Shown piece after piece: positions 25,880-58,125 of a stretch of 64,000 bases of DNA. The translations under genes and the position numbers were made by a program. The notes beneath the pieces are model-generated. The model was given only the letters and a program-made list of their open reading frames with translations. It searched no databases and was not told the DNA's origin. Source of the DNA: Cliona cf. orientalis. Taxonomy: Eukaryota > Porifera > Demospongiae > Clionaida > Clionaidae. The stretch lies in contig OZ005689.1 in NCBI GenBank assembly GCA_963930775.1, forward strand, positions 18,065,775 to 18,129,774. The letters are read 5' to 3'. Every line of letters starts with the position of its first letter. Positions within the stretch are counted from its first letter, which is position 1.

Positions 25880-26330
25880 TGCAGTAGGGTGATGTACATG
25901 CTGTTGGACAGCTCCACTTTCTGGCTGACTGCTTTGTTGTTAGTTTTAATTACAGACGATTGTATCTCATTTAGTTGTTTGTGCTGAGTGTGCGTCTGTT
26001 CATGCTGCTGCTTGAAAAAGATGAGTATTATGTGATACAGGTCTTACATCAGCCTAGAAGCCTTATACCCTCTCACATCATGTACATGTACAGGTACTAG
26101 GTACAGCCAAGTGTAAGTTTTTTGGCTGAACTTTCAAGGGAACAATGTATGTGTATGTAGCTGGGGGTGGGGGAGGGGGGGCTTATTTAGCTGATAATCA
26201 GCTGATAGGGAGAACTGAAAACCGCTACATGATAGACAGTTATCTGACAGGCAATCACAGCAAAAATAGCACAATCAGCTGAGGGCCAGCATCTACATGC
26301 ATATAAGCCACACTTCAGATAGTTAGAGAT
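25880..26330. other. No gene seen
   Basis: AT-rich sequence with a G-rich patch near 26163-26185. Nothing recognised. Confidence 0.5.
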
Positions 26331-26640
26331 AGTTAGGTGGTGAAGCTATTTGGAATAGTATGGCACTAAGTGGCTCCTGAAAGATCACAGATTATACAGG
26401 CTTCCTGGTCCAAAGGAATCTCCCTCACCCTTGCTATTCACAACCCATGCATCAGTCAGCCCTTCAAGACTACACCCGTCTAAGCTCTGCTGGATGTATA
26501 CAAGTGAGTGGTGCCTTGATCTGTATGGTACAATTCCCTATAGCTTCACCAACTAACTACATTGTAGCAAGAGTGTCTGAGGTGTTGTCAAAACAATGGA
26601 GCACTCCATTTACGCTCACTTTGGTTAGATTATAGTGCAA
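26331..26640 (+). repeat. Dispersed repeat family F, copy 1
   Basis: Includes AGTTAGGTGGTGAAGCTAT, GGTCCAAAGGAATCTCCCTC and TGGTACAATTCCC. Related to 38128-38345 and 58126-58460. The left half also occurs at 52340-52377, immediately before the DUF6589/RecQ element, whose insertion splits one copy of this repeat. Confidence 0.75.
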
Positions 26641-26664
26641 AGGCTCCCACACAGACCAATACTT

Positions 26665-27025
26665 CTCTAAACTAGAGTTCGTAGAGCACCCCGCGCGCGC
26701 TGCATCCACACGGGGCGAGGGATGAGCTAGCAGAGAGCTGCATCAGCAGTGTACTAAATACAAATCTGTTGACGATCTATACCTACAACAAACTATATGT
26801 ACATGAGCAGAATGCCAGGGTACAGTCGACAGTCGTCGCCAATAAAAGCTCACTATTTGTGACACTCGTGGACCTTGCCAAACGATTCTAATCACACTGA
26901 GAGAGCAGTTTTTTGACGATTCCAACAGGTCTGTTGTGCTTACGAGTTGCTCATGTGCCTAGATCTCGAGATCTGGCCATTTTTATATGTTGACGACAGA
27001 CTAAACTGATTGCTTTACCCCTTGC
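26665..27025 (+). repeat. MITE family B, truncated copy
   Basis: Starts AAACTAGAGTTCGTAGAGC, then CCCCGCGCGCGC, and ends CCCCTTGCGCATG without the GCGCGGGGTA terminus. Confidence 0.65.
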
Positions 27026-52056: not shown

Positions 52057-52584
52057 ATGCATGCATGGTTGAGTGCATCCCAATTAATGTAACTGATTTA
52101 TTGGTATTTGGACCTCCATTCATCTAACCCTAACGGAACCCAAACTGAAAACTGCTATGAAGATACACCTAAGAACTGACCCTCAGGGCCAACTTAGTGT
52201 ATCGCTTCCAAGGCAGGCACAATAACACCAAAAAATCACACACTCAGCCATATTACATTGTGGTCCGGTGTCAGCACATCCCTATAATAATATAGTGACA
52301 GCTTGCATAGTAAGCAGACACTTCAGACATTGTTGCTAGTTAGGTGGTGAAGCTATGAGGAATAGCATGGCATGGAGTAGTCTGCGTGATATAAATATGC
52401 GGAGGAGGGGGAGGGGAGAGAGAGGGGAAGGGTCTGGGCAAATGGCCTACCCACCGGCGTCGCGCAGGAATTTCATTTTATAGCATCACGCAGTTGAAAG
52501 ACATGCGTGTATAAGTAGGTGCGAAGCCGCAAGCATTGCGCAACTGACCCACGTGTAGTCCGTGTTGCGATAGCGACCGGGACC

Positions 52585-55500
52585 ATGGCGTGTTTGTGTA
52601 AGGCCTGCGGAGAATCTTTGTCGGAAAAGAAAGGAGACAGAAAGAGTTTGACAGGAGAGGCAGCTGGAGTGCGCTCCGTATACGGCATCCTTATGCTCTT
52701 CCTTACCGAAGGATGTCCTCGATATCAGCCAAGCGTTTACCATGAATATGTCAGCAAAGAGCCAGCATTCGTATGCAAAGAGTTGTTTCAACTTACTGAA
52801 GTACAGCGATATGAGAGATAACTTGGAACGCATGAGGTCAAAAATAACGCAGGATTTCAATATGTCATGCAGCCTGAGCGACGTGAGTCAGCACATAAGA
52901 ATATTGTTATGCTCTAATTAGAATTCACAACACGCATATTATATTTATATCTATGTGCAGTCCCAGGCGCTTGAACAAAATGATTCGCAGCTCAAGAAGC
53001 GTACATGGAGTTCAGCTATAGACATGCCAGACGAATCTCCGGCAAAGAGACCAAGGTTGCAAGACACTACACGTCGAAAGCTGTTTGTTCCAGGAGCAGG
53101 TGGGCAAGCATCCCCAGCTGTTACTGTAAGTGATGGACGGACCTGGATAATTACCATATATCTGTGTTAATTTTCACTTCATTATTATATAGGACGTTGT
53201 AGGCTATGAAAACAAGCCTAGTTACTTTCATTTAACGCAGTCACTGAAGAAGCTAGGGAGGTACGTCGGTCGAGGAAATCAAAGATCAATCGCAAGAGCA
53301 GCTGTGGACAACTCGACTTTACGTCCAGAGCTTGTAACCGCAATGTGCCATACTGTTGGAGCTGAAATAAAGTGTGTGTGCTCAGATTCACATGACTCGA
53401 TCCTCCGAATGAAGAATAAGACAGCACTGGAGCACTTTACATGGGAAACAGTATGGAATGAATTGGAGCAAAAGGCACCAACCCTGACGGCCGTCTTACT
53501 TGGACTTGCTCCTACCTCTAAGCGGGAAAATGAACATATCAAACCTGCTTTGAGTCTGTGTGCCAGTATCCTACTGAAGCTGCGCAATGACAAGGTCAAC
53601 CTTGTACAGTGTCATATCTCTAGTGATGAAGGCTGGTCATGCATCTAAGCAAGTATGTTTACTTACTCAAATTCTATTGGTATTTATGATGGTTTACTCT
53701 ATTGTAGGTATTTACTAGGCTGCACAAACTGGGTATTTGTTTGACTCATACCTCGACTATGGCATTGATGGAGAATATAGCTGATGGTCATGACGAAGAA
53801 GTTCTTGAATGGCAAGATGACCTAGTGGTCCGAGTCCCCTCTCCCGATCCAATGGTAAGACTGGTAATAGTCTATGAACGTTTTGATGGTTAGTGTATGC
53901 ACAATAAAGGTTTCAACGAGGACACAGAGACAACCTCCTCTGCATCTACCATCAGAAGAGTCTGAGCTAGACATGGATGTCTCAGGATTATTTGACATCA
54001 GCCTTGATGGTGAATCTCTAACACCTCCCTGTGTTCATGATCAGTCTCCTAGGCCAGCAGACATCCAATCTCCAGTGAGTCCCCCCTATTCTCAGGTTAC
54101 TCCTGTCCAAGATGGATCATCCGATGTACATCTAACGTCTACGCCTACACCTCTACCAAATGATAGTGGAGTCATGCTAGAAGAGACAAACCATTGTCAT
54201 AGTGGCACGGCTTCAAGTATGTAGGTGATAATATCGACAAAAATATCAAACCTAGACATCAGACGCTAGACAGTCAAGGAAAATCACTACATTATTTCCA
54301 TTACTATGCACTAATGGATAGGATAGATCTCTCCACAGTGTCAGATGAGCCACCTTCTGAAACTGTATCGTTGACAATCGACGACATTCTCCCTACCGAA
54401 GATGACTACACTACAATTCTCTCCAACTTTGCCACCCTCGCCAGCTGTGTGATATGTGAACACATAGCGGGATTTGCACCCTTCAAGCATCTGGTGAAGC
54501 AGCATATTGAGCATGCTCATCAGAAAGAAATGTGTCAGCGATCTAAAGTGGTAAAGTACACTTACTGAAATTTTTGTAGGATACATGCAATTTATGCTGT
54601 AATATACTTTAGGTTCCTCTGGGAATCATAATGAAGAACGAGAACAAAGTTGACGAGATGGTAGATATTTTGAGTTCCCTCCAGCAGTACGTCCCAACCA
54701 AAGAAGCCACCTTCACTGTTGATATACCAGAAGTAGGTACTACTGAGATGAAAGTTGAGAATATGCACAAACTTCTACTTGGTGGGGACCAGCTGATAGC
54801 TGAGAGAGCACGAGCAGCCTGCAGAGTCCGTCAAAACTCCCAACATCCAGCTGGTCGTTTGGAAGGCACTATTCCAGTTGCAGAGGACTGGCATACCAAA
54901 GTATGTTTTATGGAGGTAAGAGATGTAGTTGTTTAAGTTAATATAATACAAATAAGGCCTCATGATAAAGCATCTTATTGCAATAAGCCTGTGTACCCTG
55001 TACATCCTTGCAGGTGCTGTGGAAACAATTGTACAAAGACGGTGCTTACAAGGATGCTGGAACTCTTGCACAACTGAAATCATTGATTAATAGGACGAAT
55101 GTTCCCAAAAAACCAAAAGTGAATGTAAATGCAGCTGAAGACTTTCTTAATGCAAGTAAAAAAAGTCAATTCTCAATGATATCATTTAACCTTATGTGTT
55201 CATACTGGTGTAATAGTAATTATATTATTATGTTAATATTCATTCAGATTGTCATGGAAGGACATATTATTGCAGCCACCCTCAAGCATTTCAAAATGGA
55301 GAATTGTGAGTCAGACCTTCCTGCAACGCTCACTTGTGAATTACAGAGCTCCGAGGGCAGATCAGCATTTCACAAACACATCCTCAACATGTTGATAGGA
55401 CTCATCAATCCAATAAGGCCTGGAAAGGAGACTGGCGATCATGGATCTTGTGCAGATGGTGTCTTTACCAGGGGCGGAGAAATAGGGGGGGGCAGGGGGG

Positions 55501-56444
55501 GCTTCAGCCCCCCCACTTTGGAAACAAGGGGGGCTGAGCCCCCCCATTTTATCATATGCCCATACTACAAATTACAGCAACATAGTTCTGTCATAATTCT
55601 AGGTGTTTGCAAAGAGTGCTAAAGTAAAAATTGCTACTAAAATTAGTCCAAAAATTGGTGCCAGATTGCATCAGAAACGCTCTCAGGGAGTCAAATTTTC
55701 CAAAATTTTCTGGGGGAGCATGCCCCCAGACCCCCCTAGGTGGGCTGTCAGCCTAACGGTTAATTGTCATAGTACACAGTCAAAGGTCTGAGCCCCCCCA
55801 CTTTTGCTACCTGTTCTCCGCCCTTGTTTACTTATGCAAGTGAAGTGCTCACATTAAGCCTACTCAATGCAGAATTTGAAGATGCTATTAAAGAGGGCGA
55901 TGGAGAAAGGGTGGTCCGTTGTTGGCGGTTTTTCCTACCGATATTTAAGTCATCCAAAAGGACGAAGTATTCCCTTGAAGCAGTTAAACTACTTAACAAC
56001 ACTCATGTACCACCACCTCGGCTAAGGGAACAGATGATTTGGTCACGATTCGTGAACACAAAGGGCAAGGCTGGAGGCAACAAGCCCTGTGACCTACACA
56101 TGCAACATTTGAACCGAACAGTGAAATCTGTCCTTGGTCATCAAGGATCCAACCTAACACCAAGGACGATACTCCACATTGGGAAGTGTGTGGGACCCCT
56201 CCTTAACGTCTGTAAGCAATTTGATGCTATATCTTCTGTTCGCCAACCGTCAGGCAAACACACACAAGCATCACGTGAAAAAGATCTCAAAAGGATAGTC
56301 AATCAGCTACAAGCAAAAGATGTTTTTGGGAAGTATCCCAGGCGAAAACACGAGGAGTTCAAAAGTGTCACGGGCAGCATCATTGAGAGAATGGATAAAA
56401 ACAAATTTTGTTCATGGCTGCAAAACCACCTAAAAGAGGTGTGA
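52585..56444 (+). pseudogene. DUF6589 family protein, multi-exon, probable transposase
   Basis: The start ATG at 52585 is in good context; exon 1 has a CKAC finger-like N-terminus (MACLCKACGESLSEKKGDRK) and FVCKEL. Later exons: 52963-53130, 53194-53653, 53717-53853, about 53910-54551, 54614-54915, 55014-55154 and 55249 onward, with GTAAGA/GTATGT-type donors and TTGTAG, CTTTAG, TTGCAG and TTCAG acceptors. Conserved blocks: VGDNIDKNIKPRHQTLDSQG, HYFHYYALMDR, SKVVPLGIIMKNENKVDEM across a splice, LLLGGDQLIAERAR, RLEGTIPVAEDWHTKVCFME, and C-terminal GGNKPCDLHMQHLNRTVK. These define DUF6589, a eukaryotic family of unknown function. Lesions: frameshifts near 53620 and 54217, and a MITE in the last exon (55469-55826). 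Catalytic role is inferred from context. Confidence 0.82.
55469..55826. mobile_element. MITE inserted in the last DUF6589 exon
   Basis: Ends CAGGGGCGGAGAA and TTCTCCGCCCTTG are inverted, and TTTAC is present on both sides (55464-55468, 55827-55831). Removing it joins GVFT to YASEVLTLS in frame, so the exon was whole before insertion. G/C-rich runs near the left end and CCCCCAGACCCCCC near 55728 are internal. hAT-like ends are possible, but the duplication seems shorter than 8 bp. Confidence 0.85.
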
Positions 56445-56622
56445 TTTTAATAACATCTCTCTTGTGTATGCTTCTTATTACGTAATTGTTTATCTGACCT
56501 TCACATAATATTAAATTTTATTATTGAGAATCACCAAAGTAATAATTATTTTAATATTTAAGCTACACAGTGAAATGCATTATTGATACTACAACCTGTA
56601 TTACAAGAGACACACTTACACA

Positions 56623-57914
56623 TCACCATACACTCATCGCAACACATACAAGGTCTACAAGCAGCAACTCTCCCATCAGATTCTTCAAAATCTTGAAAAA
56701 GTTGGGTTCGGCGATCAGAGTGCAGTATTCCATCATGAGTGGTGATGATGTTCTATTGTCTGAATCACAATAGAAGAGTAGAGCACACGACAAAAATCCA
56801 TCTCTGCCACCTCTTCCTGTTTCTTGAACATAGGACTCAATGTCATGTGATGGACCCCAGTGAATAACTTGTCGTACATCGGGGCAGTCCAGTCCCATCC
56901 CAAATGCAATGGTAGCTATGACAATTCGTAAGTTACCATTGGGTAAACAAAATGCTCGTACTATTGCCTCTTTGACATCTGGCTCTGTACACTTACAATA
57001 CATATCTACCAATCTGCACTTTGCAATCCCATGACTAATACCAGATGGCACCGTGAAGTCTTTCCCGAGATAATGGTGGAACAATTGATACATCTGCGCA
57101 CATTCCATGTAGCGTCGGATGGGCATAAAGGTTTTCAAATTGCATAGTGAATCTGCTAATTCATGAACGAATTCCTCCATGGGTGATTTTTTCTTCACCA
57201 TGTACAATATGTTCTTCTTGCAGGGCGAGATGTACACGATTTGTGGTCTCTCCATCTGGAGCTTCTGGACGACTTGGTGGCAGTGGCAGTTACAGCCATT
57301 ACATGTACAGTGATGGGAATCAGGCCTCTAATCTCACCAAGACGTCGATAGTCTGTCCGAAAGCTATCACCCCTGTATGCATATTCTCATAGTCACTACT
57401 CCAATTAATGATCATCAGCCACTTACCATTGTATAATACAATATGCCTCATCAACTACTAGCGCAACCAAATTTGTCTGGTATACTGGAGAGATCAGCAT
57501 CTCTCTCCACTGTGGATTATTCAGCAATGACTCTGGGCTGATAAACAGGAGCTGAATTTTCCCAGACTTCACACTTTCCATGGCGTCCACATCTTGCTGT
57601 AGTTCTCCAACAAACTCCGTTGCTATTCCACGCATGATAAACTTGTTTCTCTATTCCATCATCAAACCTGTCAACGGAGAGACGCATATCACAATAGAAG
57701 TTCCAATACTCCCACGAAGCTCGTCAAACACGGCGGGCAACAAAGCGTAGCAAAACGATTTACCGTACCCAGTCGGGAGCGACACAAACACATCCCTGCC
57801 ACTTACAAATTCGTGTATTGCACCTCGCTGCTCCTTTTTCAATTCTTTTACCTCAGCTTTTCGCATGGCAGTATCGATAGCACATTCGATGTCTTCGCTT
57901 GAAAACTCCATCAT
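56623..57914 (-). pseudogene. RecQ-like DNA helicase
   Basis: A superfamily 2 helicase on the minus strand, converging on the DUF6589 gene. The start is probably the ATG at 57914 or 57911 (MMEFSSEDIECAIDTAM). Motif 0 is in KKEQRGAIHEF; motif I is PTGYGKSF. After PLTGLMME there is a TAG (57651), then RGIATEFVGELQQDVDAMES, SPESLLNNPQWREML and motif II VVDEAYC (DEAH in typical RecQ). A short intron (about 57425-57375) leads to GDSFRTDYRRLGEIRGLIP and motif III VTATATK, then a frameshift near 57275. The C-terminal lobe has VIATIAFGMGLDCPDVRQVI and motif VI QETGRGGRDG. RecQ C-terminal zinc and HRDC domains are absent. It could unwind element ends or assist repair; that is inference. Confidence 0.87.
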
Positions 57915-58125
57915 TGTGTCAAGTCGCACAACATTATTCATCGACCACACATACATACCGCACACACTTGTCGCAAGTGCCATATGCAATTATCACCCAC
58001 GGCAGCATTCCAGCCTTGGCTACGTCGAAGGGTAGGCCATTTGCCCAGACCCTTCCTCCTCCTTTTTTTGTGTTTTTTTTTTCGCGACCCAAGAGGAAGG
58101 GTCTGGGACCAGACTAGGCATGGAG

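Follow-up and report, generated by a model that had tools for sequence, protein, structure and literature searches.

Which class of DNA transposon carries a DUF6589 gene beside a RecQ-like helicase gene, and is DUF6589 its transposase? These questions are raised by a 64,000-nucleotide stretch of the genome of the sponge Cliona cf. orientalis (contig OZ005689.1; hereafter, the window), in which positions 52378-58116 are occupied by a DNA transposon of 5739 bp. The original prediction, made from the sequence of the window, took the DUF6589 protein for the transposase and the RecQ protein for a carried accessory helicase. Our analysis indicates, with a probability of about 0.9, that the element is a decayed AcademH-type DNA transposon and that DUF6589 is its DDE transposase with a hAT/P/RAG-like core.

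Ends, Duplications, and Genes of the Element

The element opens with TAGTCTG and closes with CAGACTA, and a perfect 9-bp target-site duplication, GGCATGGAG, abuts both ends directly; all of this had been predicted exact to the base. The predicted inner inverted block is also real, its two copies (Table 1) being 97% identical. When both flanks were fused with a single copy of the duplication, they aligned through the junction to window positions 26298-26670 (76% identity), an uninterrupted related repeat, which bears out the proposal that a host repeat was split at the insertion.

On the plus strand, PF20231 (DUF6589) matched frames 54613-54936 and 55773-56444 with 39.1 and 89.1 bits, respectively (cut-off, 27). 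On the minus strand, DEAD and Helicase_C domains were detected in frames 57989-57651 and 57327-56623, respectively, both over the cut-off. A 173-residue N-terminal piece of this helicase matched RecQ, BLM, WRN, and RECQ5 chains of the PDB (37 distinct sequences, E <= 0.001), and in the related elements L059 and L060 the helicase frames, which are intact, scored 266.4 and 270.1 bits against a recQ_fam cut-off of 219.8. The two genes are convergent, as proposed; the accompanying statement that they are the only content was inexact, because a separate 360-bp dispersed repeat is nested in the DUF6589 gene.

Ten copies were examined, and three were dropped for a missing end. Those lacking an end were L058 (left reads N), C18 (no left end), and L022/L023 (no right end, insertion shared with the window). 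Perfect duplications were found in all seven elements with both ends, which are 5057-6143 bp long. Six are of 9 bp (GGCATGGAG in the window, GATGGCCCC in C14, GGTAAAGGG in L055, GTTGGCCAC in L056, GATGCAGCT in L057, and CACTGATCA in L060) and one is of 10 bp (CAGCATACAT in L059); the C14 element, with a duplication of its own, is an independent copy. The tips start with TAG(T/C)CT, and a second, subterminal inverted block was recognized by eye in the element ends, at varying distance from the tip. Because the two members of each of the pairs L055/L056, L057/L058, and L059/L060 share 99.4-99.6% identity although they occupy different sites, these three families probably moved recently.

Single ends were also folded as DNA. 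Hairpins were strong in the right end of the window element (z -4.4) and in the left end of its segmental duplicate (z -3.8), weaker in L059 (z -2.2), and not beyond chance in L055 (z -0.5) or L057 (z -0.6). Because of this unevenness, hairpin ends are not claimed as a trait of the class.

DUF6589 as a Candidate Transposase

Two Asp residues and one Glu residue are conserved in DUF6589, in the motifs VGDN, GGDQ, and EHxN, and are predicted to be the three catalytic residues. A structure predicted from only 9 sequences could not be used (pLDDT 35.9); a usable model was obtained from 54 rows, after pieces of the genome's own DUF6589 loci had been added. In this model, an RNase H core is interrupted by a large helical insertion, the arrangement sought for a hAT-like transposase. 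The best structural matches by VIA-align, in a second look limited to chains ranked by Foldseek, were the Hermes, P-element, and RAG1/Transib transposases (8-13% identity). The likeness is read from VIA-align together with the sequence, Foldseek alone being not significant, and no solved structure was matched when the DUF6589 alignment served as a profile query. We consider DUF6589 to be very probably a transposase, as originally predicted, because the D, D, and E residues are conserved and the predicted fold is nearest to the hAT, P, and RAG/Transib transposases. The RecQ association, the convergence, the duplications, and the co-divergence described below lend this reading further support.

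The Cys-bearing N-terminus of the DUF6589 gene lies at approximately 52585-52821, and CxxC...CxxC motifs were also present in residues 1-70 of the relative P0001. This N-terminal domain was modelled at pLDDT 60-90 and, judged by eye, is perhaps a small zinc-binding domain for DNA binding or dimerisation.

Among the DUF6589 proteins found elsewhere, the nearest were those of another sponge, Ephydatia muelleri (40-45% identity), with one protein of Amphiura filiformis at 30%. Further DUF6589 proteins were present in Ephydatia, and the Amphiura protein, used as a query in turn, retrieved only itself.

Association of DUF6589 and RecQ across the Genome

The genome searched comprised 216.8 Mb in 149 contigs. 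At least 125 PF20231 matches were obtained in it, with 102 of 338 candidates scored, and 14 control genomes yielded none. The best 30 of these matches, with 1.5-kb flanks, were surveyed for RecQ by tblastn (E <= 1e-3), and a RecQ-like helicase was detected in 22 of the 30 loci, six of them weakly (2e-4 to 1.4e-7). The same tblastn found no RecQ in 10 control loci of approximately 3.4 kb or in the remainder of the window. Chance overlap was estimated, generously, at 2.7% per locus. The 30 loci are partly non-independent, L031 and L032, which correspond to the elements L055 and L056, being copies of one family. For orientation, 24 loci in which both proteins had been measured were used (L031 and L032 removed; L055, L057, L059, and the window added), and the genes were convergent with the helicase downstream in every one. 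The analysis supports a class, repeated in the genome, in which convergent DUF6589 and RecQ genes lie between ends of the TAG(T/C)CT type and the duplications are of 9-10 bp.

Pairwise distances of the C-terminal part of DUF6589 and of the helicase were correlated across 16 loci (Mantel r 0.859, p 0.0001). The two proteins diverge together, and repeated random gain of cargo would not be expected to yield such a correlation.

A divergent group of DUF6589 loci (L028, L034, L036, L039, L045, and L047-L054) aligned with the sponge protein at about 22-28% identity over the main match, and RecQ was weak or undetected in its 1.5-kb flanks; it may be a separate lineage. A different RecQ repeat (L061-L063) was also observed at C4:3097500-3103500 (L061), C6:5103556, and C10:1853499. 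It has a 1,329-aa open frame with an N-terminal RecQ helicase, and the region after the helicase resembles a MULE/Kolobok-like DDE transposase by eye; Pfam detects the helicase part only. Between C4 and C6 the repeat shows 99.2% identity across 8.4 kb or more, in a stretch read short of the left end.

Alternative Readings

Three results weigh against the AcademH-type assignment. At E <= 0.001, Foldseek matched the DUF6589 model to nothing in the PDB or among viral models. Eight of the 30 DUF6589 loci (L034, L039, L040, L048, L049, L050, L051, and L053) had no RecQ in their 1.5-kb flanks, the helicase of L040 lying about 1.7 kb away. Finally, only 6 of the 26 scored RecQ places (of 528 candidates) adjoined a listed DUF6589 match and 20 did not; RecQ sequences are therefore common elsewhere in the genome too. 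The original prediction was to be given up if other copies lacked shared ends or duplications, or if the two genes met no more often than by chance; on balance it stands, with the eight DUF6589 loci and the 20 RecQ places as exceptions. It had also likened the element to Mutator, of which 9-bp duplications are typical, but a Mutator-like element with an acquired helicase is scarcely credible: in a Pfam scan of four relatives (P0001-P0004), DUF6589 was the sole family over the cut-off and no MULE domain was found, and in structure the DUF6589 model comes nearest to hAT, P, and RAG/Transib chains.

Another possibility is that the helicase is passenger cargo with no part in transposition, which could hold even if the element is AcademH. 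Its role is deduced rather than taken from experiment, and the eight loci with no helicase in their flanks would fit; its position and orientation, however, are constant in all 24 loci with both genes, and the co-divergence is that of a fixed functional partner, which makes mere cargo unlikely. Very unlikely, in turn, is a new superfamily, in which DUF6589 would form a separate DDE lineage with no sequence relationship to Academ and would have gained RecQ independently, as KolobokH did. RecQ has joined transposons repeatedly, as the available part of one account records for KolobokH and for Kolobok-1_CCri, whose RecQ gene is on the complementary strand (PMC9587614); moreover, our literature search gave no paper on DUF6589, which was set beside Academ by described features and not by transposase sequences. 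In contrast, AcademH, as portrayed in the accessible portions of its literature, fits the helicase, the 9- or 10-bp duplications, and the animal relatives, and the size of the elements (5.06-6.14 kb) fits the mean of 5565 bp reported for curated bivalve Academ elements in an extract of PMC10294476.

Proposed Mechanism and Role of the Helicase

If the element is of the AcademH type, DUF6589 would most likely bind its two-part ends, that is, the terminal TAGYCT... sequence and its subterminal inverted copy. It would then excise the element and join it to staggered target DNA, which would produce the 9-10-bp duplications. RecQ, whose gene lies on the opposite strand, would be a constant partner, its probable task being to open or process DNA ends or gaps in excision, insertion, or repair. 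PMC10045372, in the part available, suggests a link of the helicase to long duplications. The original prediction was right to place RecQ beside DUF6589, but "carried accessory" probably understates the helicase, because it diverges together with the transposase. A bolder and doubtful possibility is that transposition obligately requires DUF6589 and RecQ together, as a machine of two proteins, and that the helicase, acting at the two-part ends, helps to set the unusually long 9-10-nt stagger; the AcademH route would then differ from plain hAT-type cut-and-paste. The near-identical element pairs in this compact animal genome provide material for testing why a transposon retains a RecQ helicase.

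State of the Window Copy

The window copy is dead: it carries the 360-bp insertion, a shortened left end, and broken frames, and it has lost the catalytic Glu. Both genes have broken frames and differ by small insertions and deletions from the C14 copy, which is also decayed. The Glu of EHxN is replaced by Gln in the window copy and its duplicate and is retained in the C14 and C18 copies. The duplicate (L022/L023; C1:18307747-18319670) is a segmental duplicate of the element and its left flank, approximately 190 kb off; the flank is 98% identical over 1 kb. Because the duplicate locus retains a longer left end, TAGTCTGGTCCCAGACCCTTCC, the left end in the window must have lost 22 bp. The duplicate has no right end and contains about 6 kb of other sequence.

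The 360-bp repeat has 35 further matches in the genome among the matches listed (85-93% identity). It is bounded by CAGGGGCGGAG...CTCCGCCCTTG, which, judged by eye, we take to be hAT-like ends.

Table 1: Features of the element and its insertion site in the window.
Feature	Position	Strand	Remark
Related repeat without insertion	26298..26670	+	Stand-in for the empty site
Left target-site duplication	52369..52377		GGCATGGAG
Left terminal inverted repeat	52378..52384	+	Cut down to TAGTCTG; 22 bp gone relative to duplicate locus L022
Left inner inverted block	52422..52452	+	Subterminal repeat
DUF6589 (PF20231) transposase gene (predicted)	52585..56444	+	Multi-exon and decayed; start and splice sites placed by eye
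First conserved Asp codon	54227..54229	+	VGDN motif
Second conserved Asp codon	54787..54789	+	GGDQ motif
Nested 360-bp dispersed repeat	55467..55826		Inside DUF6589 gene; not in three other copies compared
Conserved Glu position	56103..56105	+	EHxN motif; Gln in window copy
RecQ-like helicase gene (DEAD and Helicase_C)	56623..57989	-	Decayed, convergent with DUF6589; limits are those of open frames
Right inner inverted block	58030..58061	-	
Right terminal inverted repeat	58095..58116	-	Inward reading TAGTCTGGTCCCAGACCCTTCC
Right target-site duplication	58117..58125		GGCATGGAG

Comparison with Known Systems

A Pfam family of "unknown function" can now be named as an AcademH-type DDE transposase with a predicted hAT/P/RAG-like fold and three predicted catalytic residues, on evidence that is good, not final. 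The founding AcademH paper (Kojima, 2020) reportedly places AcademH in animals and fungi in its title. Searches of the literature for DUF6589, PF20231, and IPR046496, which excluded supplementary files, subscription journals, and Repbase, gave no paper on DUF6589, and the PF20231 matches were on unrelated subjects; because of this result, naming DUF6589 as the AcademH-type transposase may be new. The class itself is already known, and the claim that no established class has this gene pair therefore fails. In the portions available, "RecQ Helicase in Academ" was named among transposon-encoded helper proteins in 2013 (PMC3627910), duplications were given as 9 or 10 bp for AcademH and 3 or 4 bp for AcademX, a difference tied to helicase versus nuclease (PMC10045372), and Academ was counted with the DDD/E superfamilies (PMC9587614). 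The element is therefore best filed as AcademH, by the features described in these papers (helicase, duplication length) and not by comparison with Academ transposase sequences. In the features compared with these excerpts, no difference from AcademH was seen: a RecQ-like helicase is present in the window, over the recQ_fam cut-off in L059/L060, and in 22 of 30 loci; the duplications are of 9 or 10 bp in all seven two-ended elements; and a DDD/E transposase is predicted from the conserved residues and the fold, Foldseek alone being not significant.

AcademX would belong to the same superfamily if the AcademH reading holds, but it has a nuclease and 3-4-bp duplications, according to the same excerpt, and none of the four matches to XPG_I, the AcademX nuclease, in the genome was near any listed DUF6589 match. 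The resemblance to hAT (Hermes), P element, and RAG1/Transib lies in the best structural matches of the DUF6589 model, at 8-13% identity only. Duplications are of 8 bp in hAT and P elements and of 5 bp in Transib, whereas the class described here has a partner helicase and, in seven elements, duplications of 9-10 bp. Kolobok duplications are TTAA, whereas those of the window class are 9-10 bp long and varied in sequence. What KolobokH shares with this class, as far as the available part of PMC9587614 describes it, is a RecQ helicase next to a DDD/E transposase.
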